Source of the DNA: Roseibium alexandrii DFL-11
GTDB taxonomy: Bacteria > Pseudomonadota > Alphaproteobacteria > Rhizobiales > Stappiaceae
Assembly: GCF_000158095.2 (NCBI RefSeq)
Contig: NZ_CM011002.1
Coordinates: forward strand, 1,441,228 to 1,505,227
DNA length: 64,000 bases
Reading direction: 5' to 3'
A model generated the notes under the pieces. The model was not told the origin of the DNA. It was given only the letters and a program-made list of their open reading frames with translations, and searched no databases. Shown here piece by piece: positions 1 to 11,800 of this stretch; the first letter of the stretch is position 1, and each line of letters begins with the position of its first letter. The translations under genes were made by a program, and so were the position numbers.

Positions 1-729
1 CTTGAAAACCAACAGATCGTCCAGACGTTCGACGTCGCCTTCCACTTCGATGTAAAGCGCAAGCAGACCCTGGATCTCATCGCCCAAGAGATTGCCGTCC
101 TTGTCTGCCATCAGGAAAAAACTGCGGCCCTCGACCGGACCGGTAGAGACAAAGACCGGCGGGATACCTCCGGTGATGCAGAGATCAGCACAGGCCTTGT
201 GGGCAAGCCCCTGCCCCGGCCGCATGGCACCGGCATAGCATTTGCCGTCGCAGATCTCTCCGGCGAGTTTCCAGCGCCCCAATGGCACGGCGTCGCTTGG
301 AGTGAAGTTGCCCGCGCCATCTTCCGTTGCCTCCACGTTGCCGACCTGGATCATGGTGAGATCACCCCGGTTGACAGGAACGCCGCGCAAGGTGACCGGC
401 GTCCCTGCATTTGCTTCCGCTTGACCGAATACGCCGCGTTTTCCCTGACCGGACAGCATATAGGTCCGCGGTCCGCTCTCCTCGTCGCCAGGCACCCGGA
501 ATACCGGATAGGGCCTCAGTTCCAGCATTCCGGCCTGTTCAAAGCGGTTCCCCCATTGAAATCCGCCATTGCCCGGATCGTTCTGCGTTGAGGAAAGTGC
601 CAGGGCGGCCAGCCCCATGCCACCCACAAAACAAAGCGAAAAGACCAGTGCGAACACGGCTAGCGGTTTTGGAACGGCGTTCAGATAGCCAACGAAAAAA
701 GGCGCATCCTTGGTTTGTTTCCAGCTCAT
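1..729 (-). CDS. Cys-rich membrane-anchored protein, partial (runs off left edge)
   Basis: The frame is open for 243 codons from an ATG at 729 to the window edge, so the C-terminus is missing. The product has one membrane segment near residues 23-45 (AVFALVFSLCFVGGMGLAAL) and then a soluble, probably extracytoplasmic part. Near residues 165-190 it carries a striking motif, CDGKCYAG, then HKACADLC and ITGGIPPVF: four cysteines and a histidine spaced like a metal or redox site. The start overlaps the stop of the upstream Rieske membrane protein (ATGA), which implies translational coupling and a shared job. I do not recognise a named family. Similar Cys/His-GGIPP motifs are, as I recall, found in uncharacterised proteins beside Rieske membrane proteins. 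Role in the electron-transfer operon is inference. Confidence 0.8.
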   Translation of the reverse strand, partial: MSWKQTKDAPFFVGYLNAVPKPLAVFALVFSLCFVGGMGLAALALSSTQNDPGNGGFQWGNRFEQAGMLELRPYPVFRVPGDEESGPRTYMLSGQGKRGVFGQAEANAGTPVTLRGVPVNRGDLTMIQVGNVEATEDGAGNFTPSDAVPLGRWKLAGEICDGKCYAGAMRPGQGLAHKACADLCITGGIPPVFVSTGPVEGRSFFLMADKDGNLLGDEIQGLLALYIEVEGDVERLDDLLVFK

Positions 730-1793
730 GCGCCCTCTCCCAGTCTGACCGGTTCAACATGAGTTCCGGGCGGTAAGGCCTTCGGATCCAAGAGCACCGT
801 TGATCCAATCAATTTCAGCCGGTAGGTCGAAATCTTCTCGGTAAATGGTTCCGGAGCGCGCCCGTCAGCGAGGTTGTACTGATACCCATGCCACGGGCAG
901 GTAATGCAGCCCCACAGGACCTTTCCCTCCCCGAGCGGCCCGTTCTGGTGAGCACAGGCATTGGTGATCGCCGACAGCTTGCCGTCATACTTGAAGATAG
1001 CAACACGCTCGTCGTCATCCAGCGTCACCACCTTGGCGCAATCCTCATCGATCTCATCTACTTCGCCGGCAACGACCCAGCCTGCGTTCTGCAGCGAGGC
1101 CTTGGCCGTTGCCTCGCCACGCTCGCGCGCTGCTTCCATCCGCCCGGTCGCAAAGTGGAGACCGCAAACCAGCACAACGCTCGCCGTGACCAGACTTGTC
1201 AGTATCGGATCCCCGGGGCCTTGAAGCGCGCCCAGCGCCACATGCAGCACGACAAAAGCGTACGCGATATAAATCGACATGTGCAGCGCTTTCCACAGTG
1301 GGGCTCCGAGAAAGCTCAGCCAGAAATCGTGGCTGGTGGCGGCGAGAACGAACAAGATCAGCAGCGCCCCAATGCCCAGCGCCTCGAAGGGAAAGCCGAG
1401 GATCTGGCCGTAACTGGTGTTGGACGACAGCAACGCGACGTATTTGTCCGTTGGCGAGAAATTATAATACCAACCAAGCACATAATTGGCATGGACAGCG
1501 GCAATCCCTGCTGTCAGCACACCGAAGTGCCGCCGATTATAAAGAAGCGGCAGGAAGCGCCGATCGAGCCGGGCGAGCGGTCCGATACACAGGATGACGG
1601 TGAGCATCAAGAACGCGCAGCTGCCAAAGGCGCGCATGCGCAACGTCGCCCCGTCAATCGGTTTGGTGACATCCTCAAATGCCGGGGCATAGCGGATAAA
1701 GACGTAAAGGTAGAGAGCGACCGCGATCAGCAGAACGGCGTCATAAACCAGCTTGTTCCTGTTCCAAAGAACCGGGGTGTATTGAACACTCAT
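726..1793 (-). CDS. Ferric-reductase-like membrane domain fused to Rieske [2Fe-2S] domain
   Basis: A 355-residue protein. The N-terminal two thirds hold about six membrane helices with histidines inside or next to helices (AAVHANYV, SHDFW, ALHMSIY, VVLHVALG), as expected for a b-heme-binding ferric-reductase-like domain. The C-terminal domain is a Rieske cluster: C280-A-H282 followed by C299-P-W-H302. The ATG at 1793 was chosen because GGAGGGG lies just upstream and the previous gene ends in an ATGA overlap; a longer frame to 1928 is not needed. This should move electrons between the membrane (quinone or heme) and a soluble Rieske partner. It sits between two tiny membrane proteins and the Cys-rich protein, all translationally coupled. 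The physiological donor and acceptor are unknown. Confidence 0.88.
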   Translation of the reverse strand: MSVQYTPVLWNRNKLVYDAVLLIAVALYLYVFIRYAPAFEDVTKPIDGATLRMRAFGSCAFLMLTVILCIGPLARLDRRFLPLLYNRRHFGVLTAGIAAVHANYVLGWYYNFSPTDKYVALLSSNTSYGQILGFPFEALGIGALLILFVLAATSHDFWLSFLGAPLWKALHMSIYIAYAFVVLHVALGALQGPGDPILTSLVTASVVLVCGLHFATGRMEAARERGEATAKASLQNAGWVVAGEVDEIDEDCAKVVTLDDDERVAIFKYDGKLSAITNACAHQNGPLGEGKVLWGCITCPWHGYQYNLADGRAPEPFTEKISTYRLKLIGSTVLLDPKALPPGTHVEPVRLGEGA

Positions 1794-1963
1794 TGGTTCC
1801 CCTCCCCGGTTGCCGCCGCATTTGCGGGCGCTTCTATCAGGATTGCCGGCCGATCCGCTGGCGGGGTTTGCCGCAAGGCAAGAACGGTGAAGAAAGCCAG
1901 AGGCAGTGCGATACCCAGCACTGTCCAAATCCGGGCGTGAGCGGTTCGGTGGGCCCGTTTCAT
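1790..1963 (-). CDS. Small single-pass membrane protein (57 aa)
   Basis: Starts at the ATG at 1963 inside the ATGA overlap with the gene before it, and its own stop overlaps the start of the Rieske membrane protein in the same way. A single hydrophobic helix (about residues 13-29, WTVLGIALPLAFFTVLAL) follows a basic N-terminus, and the tail is Pro/Ala-rich. No family recognised. The double 4-bp overlap shows it is a genuine operon member; it may be an accessory subunit of the membrane Rieske complex. Confidence 0.7.
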   Translation of the reverse strand: MKRAHRTAHARIWTVLGIALPLAFFTVLALRQTPPADRPAILIEAPANAAATGEGNQ

Positions 1964-2181
1964 GGTTTGTGCCCCTTCGTTCTTTCCAGAACCGCCCAGC
2001 GGTAAAGCACCAGCGGCCAAATGAGGCAGATACCGGGGATCAAGAGCGGGCGGAAGGCATAGGACCCGTTGGCCGATGGCTCTATCCGGTCAATGCCAAT
2101 CACCAAGAACAAAGCCGTAACGATCCCACCTGCATAGAGATAATAGCGGCCCAGTTCGATCAGAAATTCTGCTGTCTGCAA
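1960..2181 (-). CDS. Small two-helix membrane protein (73 aa)
   Basis: Two predicted membrane helices: YLYAGGIVTALFLVIGI near residues 14-30 and LIPGICLIWPLVLYRWAVL near residues 47-65. The likely start is a TTG at 2181 preceded by GGGGGAG, only 10 bases after the stop of the ThDP enzyme gene. The 3' end overlaps the next gene by ATGA. It resembles small membrane subunits that sit beside cytochrome b-type modules, but no family is recognised. Operon position is the main evidence that it is real. Confidence 0.7.
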   Translation of the reverse strand: MQTAEFLIELGRYYLYAGGIVTALFLVIGIDRIEPSANGSYAFRPLLIPGICLIWPLVLYRWAVLERTKGHKP

Positions 2182-2191
2182 TGCTCTCCCC

Positions 2192-4168
2192 CTATACCAG
2201 ATCCGCGTCGGTCACGATCTCAACAAGTGACGGACCATCATGGGCAATCGCCTCTGCGATAGCACTGTGCAGTTCTCCGGCTTCCGTGACACGATGACCA
2301 TGCCCACCGCACAAACGAGCAAAAGCGGCAAAGGACGGGTTGGTGAGGCTTGTCTCCCAGACCGGCCACTCGCCCGACCGCTGTTCCTTGGAGATCTTAC
2401 CGAGTTCAGAGTTGTTGAGAAGGATGTGCGTGATGTTCATGCCGTATTTCACGGCCGTGGTGAACTCCATCGCATACTGGCCGAACCCGCCGTCGCCAGA
2501 GATCGAGATGACCTTGCGGCCCCTGTATTCCTCAAAGTCCTGTGTAGCACACCAGGCGCCCAGCGCTGCCGGCAGACTGAAACCGATCGAACCAAGATAT
2601 CCGGACATCAGGATGCGTTGGCCACGTGGCTCAAAATACCGGCCGAAGGAATAGGTGTTGTTGCCCACATCCACCGGAATGATCGCATCTTCCGGGCACA
2701 GCTCCGTCAGCGCCTTGAAGACGGCGGCCGAGTGGATCCCCCCTGTCCGCTCTTCCGAAAGGCGTCTTTCCTTTTCTTCGCGCCAAATGGCCCAGCGTTC
2801 CGCAACTTCCGCTTTTTGATCCGGTGCATCCGCGGGCCGTTTAACCTGTCCCAGCACAGCGTCGCAGAAGGTTCCAATCTCTCCCCAGACAGGCAGCGTG
2901 ACGGGATGGAACTTGCCGAGCTGCATCCGCTCGAAGTCCACCTGTATGATCGGCTTGTAGGGTGCGATTCCTGTGTGATTTGAAAACGAGGACCCGAGAG
3001 AGACAATCAGATCCGCTTCGTTCATGAACCAGCTGGCAATAGGTGTGCCTGATCGGCCAAGGACACCGGCGGACAAGGGATGGGTATCCGGAATGAGGCC
3101 CTTACCCTTGAATGTTGTCAGCACCGGCGCATCCATCTTTTCGGCAAGCGCAATGACCTTGTCCCGCACATCCTTCGCCCCGTAACCAAGCACGATGGCC
3201 GGACGCTTGGCGCCATTGATCAGTTTGAGAGCTTCCTCTAGGTCTTCGGACGACGGCGTGACTTCAATCCGGCTCAACCGGCCTTGCGGATGTCCGGCCT
3301 CCTTGGCGCTGGGCAGGGTCTGCACATCATCCGGGAATATCAGGTTGGCAACATCGCGCTCAACCAGTGCCGTTTTCAGCGCCAGGGACATCAGCTCGGC
3401 ATGCTTGGAGGTGCTAAGAACCGGTTGCGAAAATCTTGATACGGACTCAAATGCGGACTTCAGATCAATATCCTGAAAGGCACCCGGTCCGAAAACCTGC
3501 GTTTGCACCTGTCCTGTCAAAGCGAGCACAGGCGCCCGGTCCACCTTGGCGTCCCACAGGCCGGTCAGAAGATTGGTGGCTCCGGGTCCCGCAATCGTCA
3601 GACAGGCGGCGGGTTTGCCCGTCAACTTGCCATAGGCGGAGGCGGCAAAGGCGGCAGCGCCTTCGTGCCGGATCCCGATATAGCCGAGCTTGCCCTTGTT
3701 CACTTGACGCCGGATGGCATCGGCAAGCCCGAGGTTCGAGTGACCGACCATTCCGAAGATGCGCTTCACGCCCCAGTTGACCATGGTCTCGGCCATAACA
3801 TCGGTCACGGTGCGTTCATGCTCCGGCTCTGGATCAAGTCCCACGAAAATCTCGCCGCTTTCGACCTTGAGAGGATAAAGCTCCTGTCCGCTGTCTTCGT
3901 GTCCGCCGGGCGGCTTTCCGGTCAGCGGGTCGAAATCCCACCCGTGCCAGGGACAGCGGATCCAGCACTTGCCATCCGCGCCCTTCTCAATGGAGCCTTC
4001 TCCGAGGGGCCCACGCTGATGCGGGCAGTGGTTTTCCATGGCCGCCCACTGACCATCGAAGTGAGACAGGCAAATGGAAGTGGTGCGCGCCGTAACCGTC
4101 TTGACCCGCCCCTCCGGCAAATCATCCACATGACCGACCTTGATCCAGTCGAGATTTTGAGCGTCCAT
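2192..4168 (-). CDS. Rieske domain fused to ThDP-dependent enzyme (pyruvate oxidase/acetolactate synthase type)
   Basis: 658 residues. Residues 1-115 form a Rieske domain with C48-P-H50 and C72-P-W-H75. Residues 120-658 are a complete thiamine-diphosphate enzyme of the acetolactate synthase/pyruvate oxidase type: catalytic Glu169 in RHEGAAAFAAS, a central nucleotide-binding domain, and the ThDP/Mg motif GDG at 558 ending with NN at 585-586. The ATG at 4168 has AGGGAGG upstream; the frame extends to 4225 but without support. Such enzymes decarboxylate 2-oxo acids and, in the oxidase branch, pass electrons from an enzyme-bound flavin to a quinone. A fused Rieske cluster suggests electrons go to or come from the membrane Rieske protein encoded downstream. 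Substrate is unknown. Confidence 0.9.
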   Translation of the reverse strand: MDAQNLDWIKVGHVDDLPEGRVKTVTARTTSICLSHFDGQWAAMENHCPHQRGPLGEGSIEKGADGKCWIRCPWHGWDFDPLTGKPPGGHEDSGQELYPLKVESGEIFVGLDPEPEHERTVTDVMAETMVNWGVKRIFGMVGHSNLGLADAIRRQVNKGKLGYIGIRHEGAAAFAASAYGKLTGKPAACLTIAGPGATNLLTGLWDAKVDRAPVLALTGQVQTQVFGPGAFQDIDLKSAFESVSRFSQPVLSTSKHAELMSLALKTALVERDVANLIFPDDVQTLPSAKEAGHPQGRLSRIEVTPSSEDLEEALKLINGAKRPAIVLGYGAKDVRDKVIALAEKMDAPVLTTFKGKGLIPDTHPLSAGVLGRSGTPIASWFMNEADLIVSLGSSFSNHTGIAPYKPIIQVDFERMQLGKFHPVTLPVWGEIGTFCDAVLGQVKRPADAPDQKAEVAERWAIWREEKERRLSEERTGGIHSAAVFKALTELCPEDAIIPVDVGNNTYSFGRYFEPRGQRILMSGYLGSIGFSLPAALGAWCATQDFEEYRGRKVISISGDGGFGQYAMEFTTAVKYGMNITHILLNNSELGKISKEQRSGEWPVWETSLTNPSFAAFARLCGGHGHRVTEAGELHSAIAEAIAHDGPSLVEIVTDADLV

Positions 4169-4199
4169 TAATTCCTCCCTCAAAACTGATCGGCCCGGA

Positions 4200-5816
4200 T
4201 CAGGCCACACCACCGTAAGTAACACCCGACAGGTTCGCCATTTCCCGTCTCCACGTTGTGAGATCGTGCTGATTGAACTGGTTCAAATGCGAATAGCCGC
4301 AGGCCCGCGCCATCACCTGCATCAGCTCAACCGATGCTTCGAAGAAGTTGGCGAGTTGGCGGGCGGATTTCTCGATCACAAGCCGGTTTACCAGATGCGG
4401 TTTCTGGGTCGCGATCCCGACAGGGCAATTGTTGGTATGACAGGCGCGCATGGCGATGCAGCCGATTGCTTGCATTGCGGCGTTGGAAACGGCAATCGCA
4501 TCCGCGCCCAGCGCCATCGCTTTCACGAAATCCGCCGGCTTCCGGAGGCCTCCGGTAATCACCAGCGAAACATCATTCCGGCCCACCTTGTCGAGATGCC
4601 GACGGGCCCGCGCCAGCGCCGGGATTGTCGGCACGGAAATATTGTCCCGGAAAATGATCGGCGCAGCTCCAGTGCCCCCGCCGCGGCCATCCAGGATGAT
4701 GTAATCAACCCCAATCTCCAGAGCCGCATCGATGTCTTTTTCGATATGCTGTGCGGAGAGCTTGTAGCCAATCGGAATGCCACCTGTCCGGCTACGCACC
4801 TCATCGGCGAAATCCCGGACTTGTTCGCAAACGGTCCAGTCGGGGAAGCGCGGCGGCGAGATCGCCGATTCCCCTTCATTCAGCCCCCGCACCTCGGCAA
4901 TCTTGCCCTGCACCTTGGACCCCGGCAAATGGCCGCCGGTTCCGGTCTTGGCGCCCTGGCCTCCCTTGAAGTGGAATGCCTGGACCTTATTCAGCTTCTC
5001 CCAGTCGAACCCGAACCGTCCGGAGGCCAGCTCATAGAAATAGCGCGAGCAAGCTTGCTGTTCTTCCGGCAACATTCCGCCTTCACCGGAACAGATGCCG
5101 GTTCCAGCAAGCTCCGCACCCCGCGCAAGCGCGATCTTTGCCGGTTCGGACAAGGCGCCGAAGCTCATGTCCGAGACAAAAAGCGGGATCTTCAGGTGAA
5201 GCGGCTTTTGCGCATTCGGCCCGATGACAACATCTGTTCCGACCGGATCATCATCGAGCAGCGGGAAGCGCTGCAATTGTGCCGTCAGGATCTGGATGTC
5301 GTCCCAATCCGGCAGCTCCACACGCGGTACACCCATCGCGTCCACCACGCCGTGATGACCGGTCTTGGAAAGACCGTGTTTGGCATACCCCTGAATGAGT
5401 TTGGTATAGGGCTCTTCCTCAGTGCCATGAGATGTATCGGCGTAAAGCCCGAGATAGTCATCCCGCTGGAACGGCTGCGGATTGTCTTTGGCCCAAGCTG
5501 CGATCTCCTCCGCATCCACCCGCACTTCATCGCTTTCGACCCAGCTGGTGAATTTCTTCAAGACTTCCGAATTGTTGTATTCAGAAACGCCCGTATCAAT
5601 GCGGTAGTCCCAGTAGTGAACGCCGCAAATAAGGTTGTCTCCATCCACATAGCCGTCGGACATCAGCGCCCCGCGGTGAAGACACCGCCCGTACATCACT
5701 GACACCGTCTCATCAAAGCGAACGACCACCAGATCGACATCTTCAACGAGCGCGTACTGTGGATCCCGGTCCGGCAATTCACTCCATTTGGCGACGGCGC
5801 GTGCTTTCATTTTCAT
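4200..5816 (-). CDS. Rieske domain fused to FMN-binding glutamate synthase-like domain
   Basis: 538 residues. The N-terminal ~100 residues are a Rieske domain (C45-L-H47 and C64-G-V-H67). The rest matches the FMN-binding central domain of glutamate synthase: a conserved glycine-rich segment (GRGGGTGAAP) and cysteines C453, C459 and C464 in CIAMRACHTNNC, the spacing that holds the 3Fe-4S cluster in GltS. It lacks the class II glutaminase domain, so it cannot hydrolyse glutamine by itself. It is the first gene of the operon, 31 bases before the Rieske-ThDP gene, and is transcribed away from bchE. Likely an FMN/Fe-S oxidoreductase fed by Rieske electron transfer; whether it makes glutamate is uncertain. 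Confidence 0.9.
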   Translation of the reverse strand: MKMKARAVAKWSELPDRDPQYALVEDVDLVVVRFDETVSVMYGRCLHRGALMSDGYVDGDNLICGVHYWDYRIDTGVSEYNNSEVLKKFTSWVESDEVRVDAEEIAAWAKDNPQPFQRDDYLGLYADTSHGTEEEPYTKLIQGYAKHGLSKTGHHGVVDAMGVPRVELPDWDDIQILTAQLQRFPLLDDDPVGTDVVIGPNAQKPLHLKIPLFVSDMSFGALSEPAKIALARGAELAGTGICSGEGGMLPEEQQACSRYFYELASGRFGFDWEKLNKVQAFHFKGGQGAKTGTGGHLPGSKVQGKIAEVRGLNEGESAISPPRFPDWTVCEQVRDFADEVRSRTGGIPIGYKLSAQHIEKDIDAALEIGVDYIILDGRGGGTGAAPIIFRDNISVPTIPALARARRHLDKVGRNDVSLVITGGLRKPADFVKAMALGADAIAVSNAAMQAIGCIAMRACHTNNCPVGIATQKPHLVNRLVIEKSARQLANFFEASVELMQVMARACGYSHLNQFNQHDLTTWRREMANLSGVTYGGVA

Positions 5817-6199
5817 TCCCCAGCTAGTGGCACAGCGTTTGTTCTACTGGGCCTTGGCGTTTTATGGTTGCTTCAAAACAGTCAGTAATTGATTGCGGAC
5901 TGTCGTCCTTACATCTCCTGTCTCCATGATCAGCATGTGCTGAAGGCGCGCCTTGGAAAATGAGCGAGCAATAGATGGTTTGCCTGCAGGATTAGGTCTG
6001 GAAAGCCCTGCAGTCTCAAATCATAAGCAGATGACAGTGCCGTGTGGCAATCGTGAAATACCGCAAGGGAAGATAATTGAGCTGCGAGCCGCCCTGCCGC
6101 TCAACCTGAAAAAATACGCAATTCGCCCGATTGATCTGCGTCATTTTTCTGAGACGATGCATGTGTCAACTTTAATTGACACATTTGAGAGGTGATCCC
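5817..6199. other. Divergent intergenic region between Rieske operon and bchE
   Basis: 383 bases that must hold promoters for both the leftward Rieske operon and rightward bchE. The PpsR-type site at 6164-6181 is the only clear element. A TTG-started open frame of 80 codons (5953-6195) has no ribosome site and no recognisable product, so I do not call it. Confidence 0.6.
6164..6181. promoter_or_regulatory. PpsR/CrtJ-type operator TGT-N12-ACA
   Basis: TGTCAACTTTAATTGACA is a TGT-N12-ACA site with 6-bp inverted arms (TGTCAA/TTGACA). It lies 18 bases before the bchE ATG. In purple phototrophs PpsR/CrtJ represses bch, crt and puc genes from such sites under oxygen or light. Position and match are direct observations; regulation of this gene is inference. 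Confidence 0.8.
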
Positions 6200-7857
6200 A
6201 TGCGCATCCTGTTTGTTCATCCAAACTACCACTCTGGTGGGCGCGGAAATCGCCGGGAGCTGGCCTTCCTGCCTGGGTCGCCTACCTCTCGGGGAGCCTC
6301 AAAAAAGGCAGGCTTTGACGACTTCATTTCGTCGATGCCATGACAAATGACCTTTCAGACGAGGAAATCGCCTCAGAGATCCGACGGATTTCACCGGATG
6401 TCATTGGGGTTACCTCCATCACCCCGTCGATTTACGCCGCCGAACGCATCCTTGAAATCGCAAGAGACGAGCACCCGCATGCGGTTCGGGTCCTCGGCGG
6501 TGTCCACGCCACCTTCATGTACAAGCAGGTTTTGAGCGAAGCGCCTTGGGTGGATGTCATCGTACGCGGCGAAGGCGAAGAAATCGTCATTGAGCTGATG
6601 CGGGCAATCGACGAAGAGCGGTGGCCGGAAGACCGCAGAACGATCAAGGGCATTGCTTTCAAGGAAGACAATCAGATCGTTGCGACCCATGCGGCCGCGA
6701 CCGTGAAGGATCTTGACGCGATCGAGCCGGACTGGAACATCCTGGAATGGAACAAATACACCTATGTTCCGCTGGGCACCCGCGTTGCCATCCCGAACTT
6801 TGCCCGGGGATGCCCGTTCACTTGCTCCTTTTGTTCTCAGTGGAAGTTTTGGCGCGATTACCGGGTGCGCGATCCCAAGAAGGTTGTCGATGAAATCGAA
6901 AAGCTGGTCACCGAGCACAATGTCGGCTTTTTCATCCTTGCCGACGAAGAGCCCACCATCAACCGCAAGAAGTTCGTTGAATTCTGCAACGAGCTGATCG
7001 CACGCGGGCTGCCGGACAGAATCAAGTGGGGCATCAACACCCGCGTGACCGACATCATGCGCGACAAGGACCTCTTGCCGCTCTACCGCGAGGCCGGTCT
7101 GGTGCATGTGAGCCTTGGAACGGAAGCAGCGGCGCAGCTCAAACTCGACCAATTCAACAAGGAAACCAAGGTCAACGACAACAAGGAAGCCATCCGGCTT
7201 CTGCGGGAGGCCGACATCTTCGTCGAAGCCCAGTTCATTGTCGGGCTCGACAATGAAACCGAGGAAACCTTGGAAGAAACCTACAAGATGGCGTGGGACT
7301 GGCAGCCGGACCTTGCCAACTGGGCCATGTATACGCCCTGGCCGTTCACACCGCTCTTCCAGGAAATCCGAGATCAGGTCGAGGTGTTCGATTTTTCAAA
7401 ATACAACTTCGTCACACCAATCATGAAGCCCAAAGCCATGACACGCGGCGAACTCTTGAATGGCGTCATGAAGAACTACCGGCGCTTCTACATGCAAAAG
7501 GCTTTGTTCCACTACCCGTGGCGCGGTACAGGCTTTCGCCGGCGCTATCTGCTGGGCTGCCTGAAAGCCTTCCTGAAGGCCGGGTTCGCCCGCACGTTCT
7601 ACGATCTTGGCAAGGCAGGCTACTGGGGGCCGCAGTCCAAGGACAAGGTGCATTTCGACTTCGATGAGAACCGCACATTGGCAGAAGCCCAGGTGGCGGA
7701 TTGGGAATCGGCGGCCGATCGTGCCGCGCGGGCAGCCGAGCGCCGCGAAGCTCTGCGGCTACAGGGCAAGGAACGGGCGTCAGAGCGCAAGAAAGCCTCA
7801 GCCGCGGCAGCGCTTGCCTGCGGTGGCAGCACTGAACAAATGGCGGAGAACGCCTGA
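6200..7857 (+). pseudogene. bchE: Anaerobic Mg-protoporphyrin IX monomethyl ester cyclase, 5' end frameshifted
   Basis: BchE forms the isocyclic ring E of bacteriochlorophyll without oxygen, using a B12-binding domain and a radical-SAM domain. The long frame (6340-7857, 505 codons) contains the end of the B12-type domain and the [4Fe-4S] motif GCPFTCSFC, cysteines at 158, 162 and 165 of that frame. The true N-terminus begins at the ATG at 6200 (MRILFVHPNYHSGG, preceded by GAGAGGTG), but the next 125 bases need four single-base corrections to read as BchE: extra G near 6238-6241, extra T near 6264, extra A in the run at 6301-6306, and one missing base near 6322. The rest is intact. It is followed one base later by bchJ. 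Either real decay or sequencing errors in short repeats. Confidence 0.88.
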
Positions 7858-8484: not shown

Positions 8485-9234
8485 TCAGTTCGCGGCCCCG
8501 GTGCCTTCAATCGCTGCAAATCGCACACGGGCATCCGGCGCAGACCGCTTGTCCGCGATTTCCAGAATGAGCTTCTTGCGCACAGCCGCTGCGAACGTGT
8601 CCGCGCTGTCGGCCGTCACCACAAAGGATCCAGGACCACCGATGATCTCGGAGAAAAACCGGTCTTCCAGATTGTAAGACACCGGACGGCCGGAACAGTG
8701 ACGGCACAATACCGCAAGACCATTTATGACGATGCCGGAATTCACAACAGCGTCTCTGGCCTCAGTGATGCTTGGCCCGTTCCAGTTGTTGGCGCTGTCC
8801 GCCGACAAGTCGATCACCCGCCGCAATCCCTTGTATTCATTGGTGTCGATCAGCTCCTTGCCCTTTAGGAGCGCTGCCCCAATCGCATTGCGGCCAAACG
8901 CCTGACGGGGCGGTGCCATCAAACGCTCTGCAAAGAGCTGCGCGGACTGCGGTCCGTCGATCACCATCCAGTCGACCACGACGTCCTGGGAAAACATGTC
9001 CGCCCATTCGACATAGGTGATGGCGATCTTGCCATAAGCGTTGTCGGCAATGGCGTTCAGGACCTGCGGGTCAGTTATCGCTTCGGCATAGCCCTGGCGC
9101 TGGAACCTGATTTCCGCGTCGTCAATCGACCCCGTCGCGTCTGCCAGAAGCACAAGTTCCAGATCAAGTTCCTCGGACGCAGCAGACACAATCAATCCCT
9201 GCAACAAGACAACTATGATCACAATTATCCGCAT
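8485..9234 (-). CDS. Secreted DUF1194 (von Willebrand A-like) protein
   Basis: 249 residues with a signal peptide (MRIIVIIVVLLQGLIVSAAS). The mature part begins with LVLLADATGSID, a MIDAS-like D-x-T-x-S variant, as in DUF1194 proteins that adopt a von Willebrand A fold. A GGAGG lies directly against the ATG at 9243, so the ATG at 9234, nine bases after it, is the better start. It has two cysteines close together (CRHC). Function is unknown; such domains usually bind proteins through a metal. It is convergent with bchJ and 32 bases from its stop. Confidence 0.85.
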   Translation of the reverse strand: MRIIVIIVVLLQGLIVSAASEELDLELVLLADATGSIDDAEIRFQRQGYAEAITDPQVLNAIADNAYGKIAITYVEWADMFSQDVVVDWMVIDGPQSAQLFAERLMAPPRQAFGRNAIGAALLKGKELIDTNEYKGLRRVIDLSADSANNWNGPSITEARDAVVNSGIVINGLAVLCRHCSGRPVSYNLEDRFFSEIIGGPGSFVVTADSADTFAAAVRKKLILEIADKRSAPDARVRFAAIEGTGAAN

Positions 9235-9847
9235 GGTCTGCATCCTCCGCTACAACTCAGAAGATAGCTAGTGCCTGCTACCGGATCAGAAAGGGAGGCG
9301 AATAACATTTGTGCAGGTCCACCGGCCTTGTTCCGTTCAGGGGAATATCGGTCGCTCTCCCGCATCACGCACAAACAAGCCTTTTCTCAGCGTCTTACTG
9401 CGGCTGCGGATTTATACTTGTCAGAATTAATCGGCACTGGCCGTAATAAATCGGCACCAGAAAGTCTTAGCCGGGATTATCCGGGAATATGCAGGATTTC
9501 GCGGTTTTGATTTTTCAAGAGCAGCGGAACCAAACTCCGCTTGCTGGAAGAGTGCGCGGCTGCCCCGCTTAAAACCCAAATTTTCGAAAACAATTGATCC
9601 AAATAAGAACAAGCTGCTCTTTTTGCCTTGATCATTGCCGCCGTACCTTACGCGCTGACCTTTCTATCGATTGGAACCTTTACCCTTGGCTCCGGGCGGT
9701 CAATGTTGAGTGTTGGAATTCAGAGAGATCACTGGCGATTTTCTTAGATTGGTGTGCTTTGAAATTGTCGAGGAAAGCAATACCGTAACCTTTGCCTCTT
9801 GTGATCATCATCGCCGGTTGCCACGGCCAGCCAATCTGGAAGCGTTT
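9235..9847. other. Non-coding stretch with two short phased repeats
   Basis: About 610 bases with no convincing gene. Two copies of AATCGGCAC begin at 9429 and 9449, 20 bases apart, and shortly after there is a tandem 10-mer CCGGGATTAT CCGGGAATAT (9471-9490). Both spacings are whole helical turns, which suits a protein-binding region for the downstream cytochrome or the divergent DUF1194 gene, but no known site is matched. Confidence 0.4.
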
Positions 9848-11800
9848 ATGAAGTTCATTCCCATTCTGGCTACAACGCTTGTCTCGCTCTTTTGGCCACT
9901 TGCGCCTCTAACAGCGCAAACGCCGGCACATCCCGACTACGCAGGCAGCCAGACATGTGTTGGATGCCATGAAGCAGAGGCTGAATCCTGGGCAACGTCT
10001 CATCATGCAAAAGCATGGATGGAGCCTTCTGAAACAACCGTCGACGGTGATTTTGGGGGCGTTGAATTCGCGCACCGGGGGCGAACGACCCGGTTCTTTC
10101 AAAAGGATGGAGAGTACTTCATTGAAACGACCGACTTTCCTGACGGACCCACAACACTAAAGGTGGTGGGTGTCGGTGGCATATATCCGCTCCAGCAATA
10201 CCTGATCGAAACCAAGCCGGGACGCCTGCAATCCCTTGACATCGCCTGGGATCAGGACCTGAAGACCTGGTATCACATCTATGAGGGTCAGGAGCTGAAA
10301 CCGGAAGACGGCTTTCACTGGAGCGGACCTTACAAGAATTGGAATGCCCGCTGCGCCGAGTGCCACGCAACCGGATTTGAAAAAAACTATGATCCGCGCG
10401 AGCGCCGCTATTCAAGTATGCAGGCGGAAATCGGTGTCGGCTGCGAAGCCTGCCACGGACCGGGCGAGGCTCATGTCACTTGGGCAGAACATCAAGGTGG
10501 AGCGAGCAAGAGCCCGTTCCCGGGTCTAGGACCAACCGGCTTGATGGTGGCCTTTAGCGAAAACAACGCCGAAACAGAAATCCAGCAATGTGCCGGGTGC
10601 CATTCCCGCCGGGAAGCCTTTGAGGACGGGAATCCGCTCCCAGGGACACCTTTCCACGATGCCTATCGGCTGGCGCTTTTGCGGAACGGTCTTTATCACG
10701 CCGACGGGCAAATCCTGGATGAGGTCTATGTCTATGGCTCGTTCCTCCAGTCCAAAATGTATGACAAGGGGGTGCGTTGCTCCAACTGCCACGAGCCGCA
10801 CAGCGGAGCGCTGCGCGCGCAAGGCAATGCCATCTGCACCCAATGCCATTCAGAGGCTGGCAACACGCGCTTTCCGAGCTTGACGCTGAAGGTCTATGAC
10901 GACCCATCTCATCACTTCCATGAAACAGATACTGCGGACGCTCAATGTGTGTCCTGCCACATGATCGAGCGCACCTATATGGGGATCGATGAACGCCGGG
11001 ATCACTCGTTCCGTGTTCCGCGCCCGGATCTCTCCGCCGCGATCGGGACGCCAAATGCCTGCAACGATTGTCATACAGAAAAAACGCCGGATTGGGCGTC
11101 AACAGAGCTCCAAACGCGCTTTCCGGACAGCCCGCACCGCGGCCCCCATTTTGGCGAAGTCTTTCACGCAGCAAGAAACGGAGCTTCCGGGATCGGGCCC
11201 GATCTTCTCCAAATTGCCCACCATGCCGCATTTCCAGCAATCGTGCGGGCATCGGCGCTTGACTTGTTGAGTACCAGTGATGGCTCGGACCTGTCCGGTA
11301 AAACGGATACCCTTCTTGAAGATGATAGTCCGATTGTTCGGGCCGCAGCGCTGAAACTGCTCCAGAGGTTGCCACCTCAAGCCCGATTGGTTCCGGTGCT
11401 GAAGGCCTTGGACGATCCATCAAAGGCCGTTCGGATCGAGGCCGCCCGCCAACTACTCGGGCTGCAAACCGCCCGTTTGCCGGAAAATTCACTTGCAAGC
11501 GCCCGATCGGCGTCCAAAGAATGGCAAGCAGCGCTTGCCAACAAGACCGATTTCCCGGAAACGCATATGGTCATCGGTGGGACCAGCCTCGCAATGCGCA
11601 ACTGGCCGGCAGCAATTGCTGCCTTTACAGAGGTCACACGCCTAGATCCGCAATTGGTCCAAGCGTGGGTTTTTCTTGTCCGGCTCAATCTCGCGCTTCA
11701 AAATCCGGCTGCGGCCGAGCTTGCCCTTCAGAAGGCGCTGCTTGCCAACCCGGAGGCGCAAGAATTGCGCGCGTTGCGTGAAAATTCAATTTTGCAGTAG
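9848..11800 (+). CDS. Secreted octaheme c-type cytochrome with HEAT and TPR segments
   Basis: 650 residues. A signal peptide (cleavage after PLTAQ) is followed by eight CxxCH heme motifs: CVGCH, CAECH, CEACH, CAGCH, CSNCH, CTQCH, CVSCH and CNDCH, all before about residue 410. The spacing resembles the cytochrome c554/multiheme family. From about residue 440 the chain becomes alpha-helical HEAT-like repeats (DDSPIVRAAALKLLQRL, DDPSKAVRIEAARQLLGL) and ends in TPR-like helices. It acts in the periplasm, probably as an electron-transfer or reductase subunit. No partner oxidoreductase is adjacent, so it appears to stand alone. The ATG at 9848 gives a proper signal peptide and has GGAAG upstream. 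Confidence 0.9.
   Translation: MKFIPILATTLVSLFWPLAPLTAQTPAHPDYAGSQTCVGCHEAEAESWATSHHAKAWMEPSETTVDGDFGGVEFAHRGRTTRFFQKDGEYFIETTDFPDGPTTLKVVGVGGIYPLQQYLIETKPGRLQSLDIAWDQDLKTWYHIYEGQELKPEDGFHWSGPYKNWNARCAECHATGFEKNYDPRERRYSSMQAEIGVGCEACHGPGEAHVTWAEHQGGASKSPFPGLGPTGLMVAFSENNAETEIQQCAGCHSRREAFEDGNPLPGTPFHDAYRLALLRNGLYHADGQILDEVYVYGSFLQSKMYDKGVRCSNCHEPHSGALRAQGNAICTQCHSEAGNTRFPSLTLKVYDDPSHHFHETDTADAQCVSCHMIERTYMGIDERRDHSFRVPRPDLSAAIGTPNACNDCHTEKTPDWASTELQTRFPDSPHRGPHFGEVFHAARNGASGIGPDLLQIAHHAAFPAIVRASALDLLSTSDGSDLSGKTDTLLEDDSPIVRAAALKLLQRLPPQARLVPVLKALDDPSKAVRIEAARQLLGLQTARLPENSLASARSASKEWQAALANKTDFPETHMVIGGTSLAMRNWPAAIAAFTEVTRLDPQLVQAWVFLVRLNLALQNPAAAELALQKALLANPEAQELRALRENSILQ

Follow-up and report, generated by a model that had tools for sequence, protein, structure and literature searches.

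A candidate modular electron relay of Rieske-fused enzymes and a ferric-reductase-domain membrane core in Roseibium alexandrii DFL-11

Organization of the operon

The stretch of DNA analyzed here (64,000 nucleotides of Roseibium alexandrii DFL-11, contig NZ_CM011002.1; hereafter the window) carries at positions 1-5816, on the minus strand, an operon of six genes that all run in one direction, encode three complete Rieske domains and share three ATGA overlaps (Table 1). The gene products are referred to as Gs, Th, s73, s57, Fr and Cy. Comparison of the operon with its relatives suggests that it may encode a modular electron relay, in which a membrane conduit containing Fr would be joined to the soluble enzymes Gs and Th through their Rieske domains. 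We give this reading a probability of slightly over one half (about 0.52).

An earlier note, made from the letters of this DNA alone, had described six co-directional genes with 4-bp overlaps among the last four and a Rieske motif in each of Gs, Th and Fr, and all of these features were found. The overlaps on the coding strand join s73 to s57 (1960-1963), s57 to Fr (1790-1793) and Fr to Cy (726-729), while 31 bases separate Gs from Th and 10 bases separate Th from s73. Gs (44.9 bits), Th (62.4 bits) and Fr (57.3 bits) all score above the cut-off of the Pfam Rieske family (PF00355), and Pfam also reads the Glu_synthase domain in Gs (307 bits), three TPP_enzyme domains in Th and the Ferric_reduct domain in Fr. 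Across the whole 5.46-Mb genome PF00355 is matched seven times (E 0.001 or better), and three of these matches are within the operon. The end of Cy lies 32 bases outside the window and the full protein has 253 aa. Beyond the window edge, a seventh gene, s82 (L008:11951-12199), overlaps Cy by 4 bp and encodes a protein of 82 aa with two transmembrane (TM) segments. Promoter and terminator matches at the operon were near the level of shuffled sequence, and one scan of viral contigs gave no viral relatives. The nearest named relatives come from Roseibium/Labrenzia.

Table 1. Genes of the operon and the stretches that hold their Rieske ligands (window positions).
Feature	Position	Strand	Size	Description
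Gs	4200..5816	-	538 aa	N-terminal Rieske and FMN/3Fe-4S glutamate-synthase-type domain; no amidotransferase/beta-subunit domain
Rieske ligand stretch of Gs	5616..5684	-		C45-x-H47 ... C64-xx-H67
Th	2192..4168	-	658 aa	N-terminal Rieske and three-domain thiamine diphosphate (ThDP) enzyme, pyruvate-oxidase/acetolactate-synthase group
Rieske ligand stretch of Th	3944..4027	-		C48-x-H50 ... C72-xx-H75
s73	1960..2181	-	73 aa	TTG start; small membrane protein, two TM segments
s57	1790..1963	-	57 aa	Small membrane protein, one TM segment
Fr	726..1793	-	355 aa	Six-TM ferric-reductase-domain protein with C-terminal Rieske; H89/H101 in TM3, H171/H184 in TM5
Rieske ligand stretch of Fr	888..956	-		C280-x-H282 ... 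C299-xx-H302
Cy	1..729 (most of gene)	-		One N-terminal TM helix, two beta domains; invariant C164, H177, C180, C184

Conservation of the membrane core

Fr was searched for in 385 genomes of the class, with full-length matches at an identity of at least 48% being counted. Up to five candidates per genome were scored for Fr and up to three each for Gs and Th, the latter two under strict E-value limits. Full-length Fr was present in 18 of the 385 genomes, that of the window included. The neighbourhoods of these 18 genomes were pooled with 80 named loci, the best of 590 and thus a choice which leans to close relatives, to give a set of 98 loci. One of these (L092) was left out as it has no full-length Fr frame, and three of the other 97 repeat a genome, leaving 94 distinct Fr proteins. 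Full flanks (at least 4.5 kb upstream and at least 3 kb downstream) were available for 76 distinct loci.

The genes next to Fr proved to be highly constant. Where the flank is long enough to tell, s73 lies beside Fr in every case (93 of 93 distinct loci) and Cy does so in 90 of 92, and in the two loci lacking Cy (L054 and L055, both of one genus) a fusion of Rieske and flavin mononucleotide (FMN) reductase domains directly follows Fr. Among the 18 Fr genomes, a full-length reductase like that of L055 was found only in G216 and G382. A long s73 (at least 100 aa) directly adjoins Fr in 33 of 93 loci, and the six such sequences inspected appear by eye to be s73 and s57 joined. As dozens of genomes carry Fr next to the same genes, at 48-97% identity, the operon is not a chance arrangement. 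Fr also occurs on five Rhizobium plasmids (53-56% identity). At least 8000 homologues of Fr were scored, and the share of full-length proteins was judged on the 120 listed.

In the model of Fr (pLDDT 81) there are six TM helices, and TM3 and TM5 contain the four heme histidines. Neither these histidines nor the four Rieske ligands (Table 1) vary in any of the 94 distinct sequences. A 2013 survey defines the ferric reductase domain (FRD) by a TM heme domain with two histidines each in TM3 and TM5 (PMC3591440), an arrangement which Fr has in all 94 sequences. Fr resembles the FRD superfamily (MsrQ/YedZ, NOX) in its modelled helices, its invariant histidines and its Ferric_reduct domain. It differs from NOX and the long ferric reductases at its C-terminus, where Pfam found no FAD/NAD(P)H domain and Rieske families take its place. 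It also differs from MsrPQ, as its score against MsrQ (32.4 bits) is below the cut-off of 130 and no molybdopterin domain, as expected of the periplasmic partner enzyme MsrP, was found in the six operon proteins scanned (Cy partial, s82 left out). Among the FRD architectures of the same survey is one that includes a Rieske domain (model M4); the legend of M4 includes an FMN domain as well, which Fr lacks in Pfam, and M4 may or may not represent the Fr family. In the part available, the survey does not describe an operon with Rieske enzymes.

Hydropathy and the distribution of charge place the C-terminal Rieske domain of Fr probably in the cytoplasm, as well as the N-terminus, and Cy probably in the periplasm. 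By structure, the Rieske model of Fr is closest to dioxygenase ferredoxins (Foldseek E 2.5e-7), and among the matches is the ferredoxin of 2de5, the solved ferredoxin-oxygenase transfer complex of carbazole dioxygenase. The oxygenase side of that complex is presumably also a Rieske protein. The dioxygenase-type Rieske of Fr recalls the Rieske ferredoxin-oxygenase systems such as carbazole 1,9a-dioxygenase, for which the solved complex is a precedent of transfer; unlike these systems, the six operon proteins scanned contain neither a mononuclear-iron oxygenase alpha subunit nor a ferredoxin reductase domain. Transfer of electrons from Rieske to Rieske between Gs or Th and Fr is likely.

For Cy, a model was built on the homologue of L058 (94% identical; pLDDT 85). 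It shows a single TM helix at the N-terminus and a pair of beta domains, of which the first is OB-like. The model is least certain at residues 166-169, adjoining a conserved cysteine. D161 and K163, together with the three cysteines and the histidine listed in Table 1, are invariant in 28 of 28 sequences, and a metal or cluster site is plausible.

Linkage of Gs and Th to the core

Gs and/or Th adjoin the core in 39 of the 76 distinct full-flank loci, in eight arrangements (25 loci with both, 12 with Gs only and 2 with Th only). Over all 97 loci, duplicates included, there are nine orders, namely Gs-Th-core (11), Gs-core (10), Gs-core-Th (8), core-Gs (3), Th divergent from Gs-core (3), core-Gs-Th (3), core-Th (2) and two single cases. 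The best tree of 75 Fr proteins, made by a quick method, requires 10 or more changes in whether Gs lies nearby, which indicates that the linkage of Gs has been made or broken repeatedly. Supported branches alone force five changes for the absence of both enzymes and seven for the presence of both Gs and Th. The enzymes and Fr also tend to occur in the same genomes. A Rieske-type Gs is present in 10 of the 385 genomes, eight of which have Fr, against 18 of 385 overall (Fisher test, p 2e-10, relatedness not corrected for). Th is found in 15 genomes, seven with Fr and eight without a full-length Fr. In four genomes (G009, G143, G123 and G227) the enzymes are present but lie away from the core.

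A number of results weigh against the relay. The core has neither enzyme nearby in 37 of the 76 loci, and 10 of the 18 Fr genomes contain neither at all (eight have Gs and seven have Th), so that in these cases the core must have another job or partner. Conversely, G074 (67% complete) has a clear Rieske-type Gs and no Fr, and G346 (94% complete, 6% contaminated) has Gs and no full-length Fr; in the latter genome the contig breaks off short of the Rieske domain of Gs, and the linker that remains looks Rieske-type. Two genomes without Fr (L142 and L143) encode a complete Th with a Rieske domain and without CDGSH motifs (see below), and Th evidently does not need Fr. Among five supported independent pairs that differ in the Gs neighbourhood, Th changed in the same way in 3.0 (average) and in the opposite way in none, which is not significant (median p 0.25). 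Finally, the topology was deduced from the positive-inside rule and from hydropathy, which by itself recovered five of the six Fr helices of the model.

An obligate six-gene pathway is ruled out by the loci in which the core stands alone. Of the earlier proposal that Rieske-to-Rieske transfer explains the gene set, what stands is a linkage seen in several arrangements, the co-occurrence of the enzymes with Fr, and the likeness of the Fr Rieske to dioxygenase ferredoxins, that of 2de5 among them; what does not is a single fixed pathway.

With nearly half of the distinct loci containing the core only, it could be argued that the core is an independent, periplasm-directed system (MsrQ-like, or a metal-reducing conduit to Cy), to which the Rieske enzymes are co-regulated neighbours or one input among several, without any Rieske-to-Rieske contact. 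FRD proteins normally pass electrons outward, and the match of Fr to MsrQ, though under the cut-off, points the same way. We consider this explanation improbable, as the linkage is repeated and specific to Rieske-fused enzymes, and CDGSH motifs replace or supplement the Rieske domain in many relatives from genomes without Fr.

Exchange of the iron-sulfur module

Six close relatives of Gs (67-74% identical) occur in genomes without full-length Fr. Four of them start with two CDGSH motifs and have no Rieske domain, despite being 68-70% identical to Gs over the catalytic part; one (that of G074) has a Rieske domain and one (that of G346) is cut. Of the seven complete Th proteins from genomes without Fr, five have pairs of CDGSH motifs ahead of the Rieske domain. 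In four of these five the motifs are ~145-150 residues apart, and the two of the four scanned with Pfam both have the order CDGSH-Fer4_19-CDGSH-Rieske-ThDP. In Fr-bearing settings, CDGSH motifs were found in 0 of 42 Gs (38 plus L154, L156, L160 and L161) and 0 of 32 Th (30 plus L155 and L157), with one of the 42 Gs (L116) showing no Rieske motif in the frame found.

As this exchange of iron-sulfur modules accompanies the absence of Fr, it suggests that the N-terminal cluster acts as a docking or electron plug whose type follows the available partner, with exceptions. Association of CDGSH with Glu_synthase, Fer4_19 and Rieske domains is listed in a 2018 survey (PMC5859297). In the part available, the survey neither links CDGSH fusions to Fr nor mentions an exchange with Rieske on close relatives of one enzyme, and the word "thiamine" is absent from its main text.

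It may also be asked whether the Rieske domains of Gs and Th are redox sensors or structural modules, with their linkage to Fr reflecting shared regulation. Eight of the 15 Th genomes lack a full-length Fr and all seven Th with an intact N-terminus there keep the Rieske domain. It is not obvious, however, why a sensor should be replaced or lengthened by CDGSH and Fer4_19 clusters, and we regard this explanation as very unlikely.

Sequence features of Gs and Th

No TM segments were predicted in either enzyme. Gs was compared over an alignment of 45 Rieske-type rows, in which the protein of the window stands twice and L043 and L093 are one genome. The Rieske ligands C45, H47, C64 and H67 are present in 45, 45, 44 and 44 rows, respectively, and the 3Fe-4S cysteines C453, C459 and C464 in 45, 44 and 45. 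The FMN-barrel region and these cysteines align with 7mfm and 1ea0, as in GltB and the stand-alone FMN glutamate-synthase-like proteins. Gs differs from GltB in its N-terminal Rieske domain, in lacking the amidotransferase and beta-subunit domains and in one residue: in an alignment read by hand, K290 (44 of 45 rows) and R310 (45 of 45) correspond to Lys972 and Arg992 of the Azospirillum GltS, but His296 (45 of 45) takes the place of Gln978. All three GltS residues are presumably ligands of 2-oxoglutarate. Neither a class II glutaminase domain nor an NADPH-dependent beta subunit was matched by Pfam among the operon proteins scanned; for the beta subunit the search did not extend to other parts of the genome.

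A Na_H_Exchanger gene precedes Gs at a distance of 15-76 bp, or with a 4-bp overlap, in 14 of 49 Gs loci, including some with Gs away from the core (L046, L059-L062, L064-L066, L071, L072, L128, L154, L160 and L161). An ion or ammonium link of Gs is possible.

Th retains its Rieske ligands in 41 of 42 rows, the remaining row being cut at a contig end. By sequence it has the ThDP pyruvate-oxidase fold, with 3eya as its best PDB match (234.9 bits), and it keeps Glu169 and Glu595 in common with the pyruvate:quinone oxidoreductase PoxB. It departs from PoxB in its N-terminal Rieske domain, in Lys591 (41 of 42 rows), where PoxB has Phe, and in its C-terminus: the match stops at PoxB residue 527 of 572 and Th has only five more residues, and so no C-terminal membrane-binding tail. 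Lys591 might suit a substrate whose side chain is negative.

The direction of electron flow bears on how both enzymes are read. The earlier note had taken the membrane protein as the donor; the evidence is compatible with both directions, and we think the reverse likelier. If the core did take electrons from quinol or the periplasm and pass them to the Rieske domains, Gs would be reductive, with its Rieske replacing NADPH or ferredoxin. The retention in Gs of the FMN region and 3Fe-4S cysteines of glutamate synthase without an NADPH subunit domain would fit this, as would K290 and R310. Quinol is however a weak reductant for the Gs reaction, the pyruvate-oxidase type of chemistry of Th yields electrons, and the change of Gln to His at position 296 suggests an altered substrate of Gs. 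Inward flow therefore seems unlikely.

Other neighbouring genes

Clustering of same-strand neighbours gave no third constant enzyme partner. The other recurrent neighbours, the Na_H_Exchanger gene upstream of Gs among them, are confined to certain lineages. Near the core are a Rieske-less ThDP gene (at least 38% identity to one of Rhizobium) in 5 of 94 loci, OpgC-like genes in 7, and in 6 a gene which we take to be phytoene-synthase-like and to which NCBIfam gave no name. A SPASM protein is encoded just upstream of s73 in two of the 94 loci (L049:5445-6524 and L052:7975-9069); by eye its start is radical-SAM-like (CxxxCxxC), and in L049 its gene overlaps s73 by 4 bp. On the Rhizobium plasmids of L162 and L163, the core is accompanied by a divergent block of TPR, ThDP-binding, OpgC and CoA-transferase genes, and similar blocks lie near L040, L079 and L080.

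Within the window, a BchE-like gene (6176-7857, plus strand; anaerobic Mg-protoporphyrin cyclase match, 757.7 bits) has its frame interrupted near the start. In the relatives L058 and L063 the frame is long and unbroken (551 and 559 aa), and the interruption is either a sequencing error or a real break. Close to this gene and to the operon is a gene for a multiheme c-type cytochrome with HEAT and TPR stretches (9710-11800, plus strand). A DUF1194 protein (239 bits) is encoded at 8485-9243 on the minus strand, and by eye a similar start lies beside the operon in L058 and L063.

Proposed electron relay

In the relay favoured here, Fr with s73, s57, Cy and s82 would form a membrane conduit, with a Rieske domain on the cytoplasmic side, two b-type hemes spanning the membrane and a Cys/His protein in the periplasm. 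The cytoplasmic Gs and Th would dock their N-terminal Rieske domains on that of Fr and exchange single electrons. Gs would oxidize an amino-acid-like substrate through FMN and its 3Fe-4S cluster, Th would carry out the oxidative decarboxylation of a 2-oxo acid, and Fr would most likely pass the electrons on, either to the quinone pool or to Cy. By general redox potentials, transfer from such oxidations by Gs and Th to a dioxygenase-type Rieske and then to quinone should be downhill, and it is for this reason that outward flow is favoured over inward.

A wider form of this proposal, which we offer only tentatively, is an interchangeable system of iron-sulfur plugs in Alphaproteobacteria. Unrelated redox enzymes (FMN, ThDP and FMN-reductase types) would bear a His-ligated 2Fe-2S plug; the Rieske plug would lead to one transmembrane bis-heme bus (Fr-s73-Cy), and a CDGSH or CDGSH-Fer4_19-CDGSH plug would redirect closely related catalytic domains to a soluble carrier. 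Oxidative deamination by Gs followed by oxidative decarboxylation by Th might then be consecutive steps, both discharging into the same bus.

The earlier note knew of no pathway of this make-up, and no published description of the operon was found in the full-text literature searched, subscription papers and preprints being outside the scope. The available parts of PMC5676040, PMC10715153 and PMC5449189 do not describe this system either. We read the set as a probable FRD electron conduit in which a Rieske domain replaces the flavin domain and which lies, in many genomes, beside Rieske-fused enzymes; as a set of genes it is apparently undescribed.

If the relay is correct, it would represent an unrecognized entry of cytoplasmic oxidations into the membrane electron chain, common to unrelated enzymes, with Rieske-to-Rieske contacts in place of NADH, ferredoxin or direct quinone reduction. 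It would also give a role to the large unnamed Fr family, and the exchange of Rieske and CDGSH modules on close relatives would be a natural experiment on the partner choice of redox domains.

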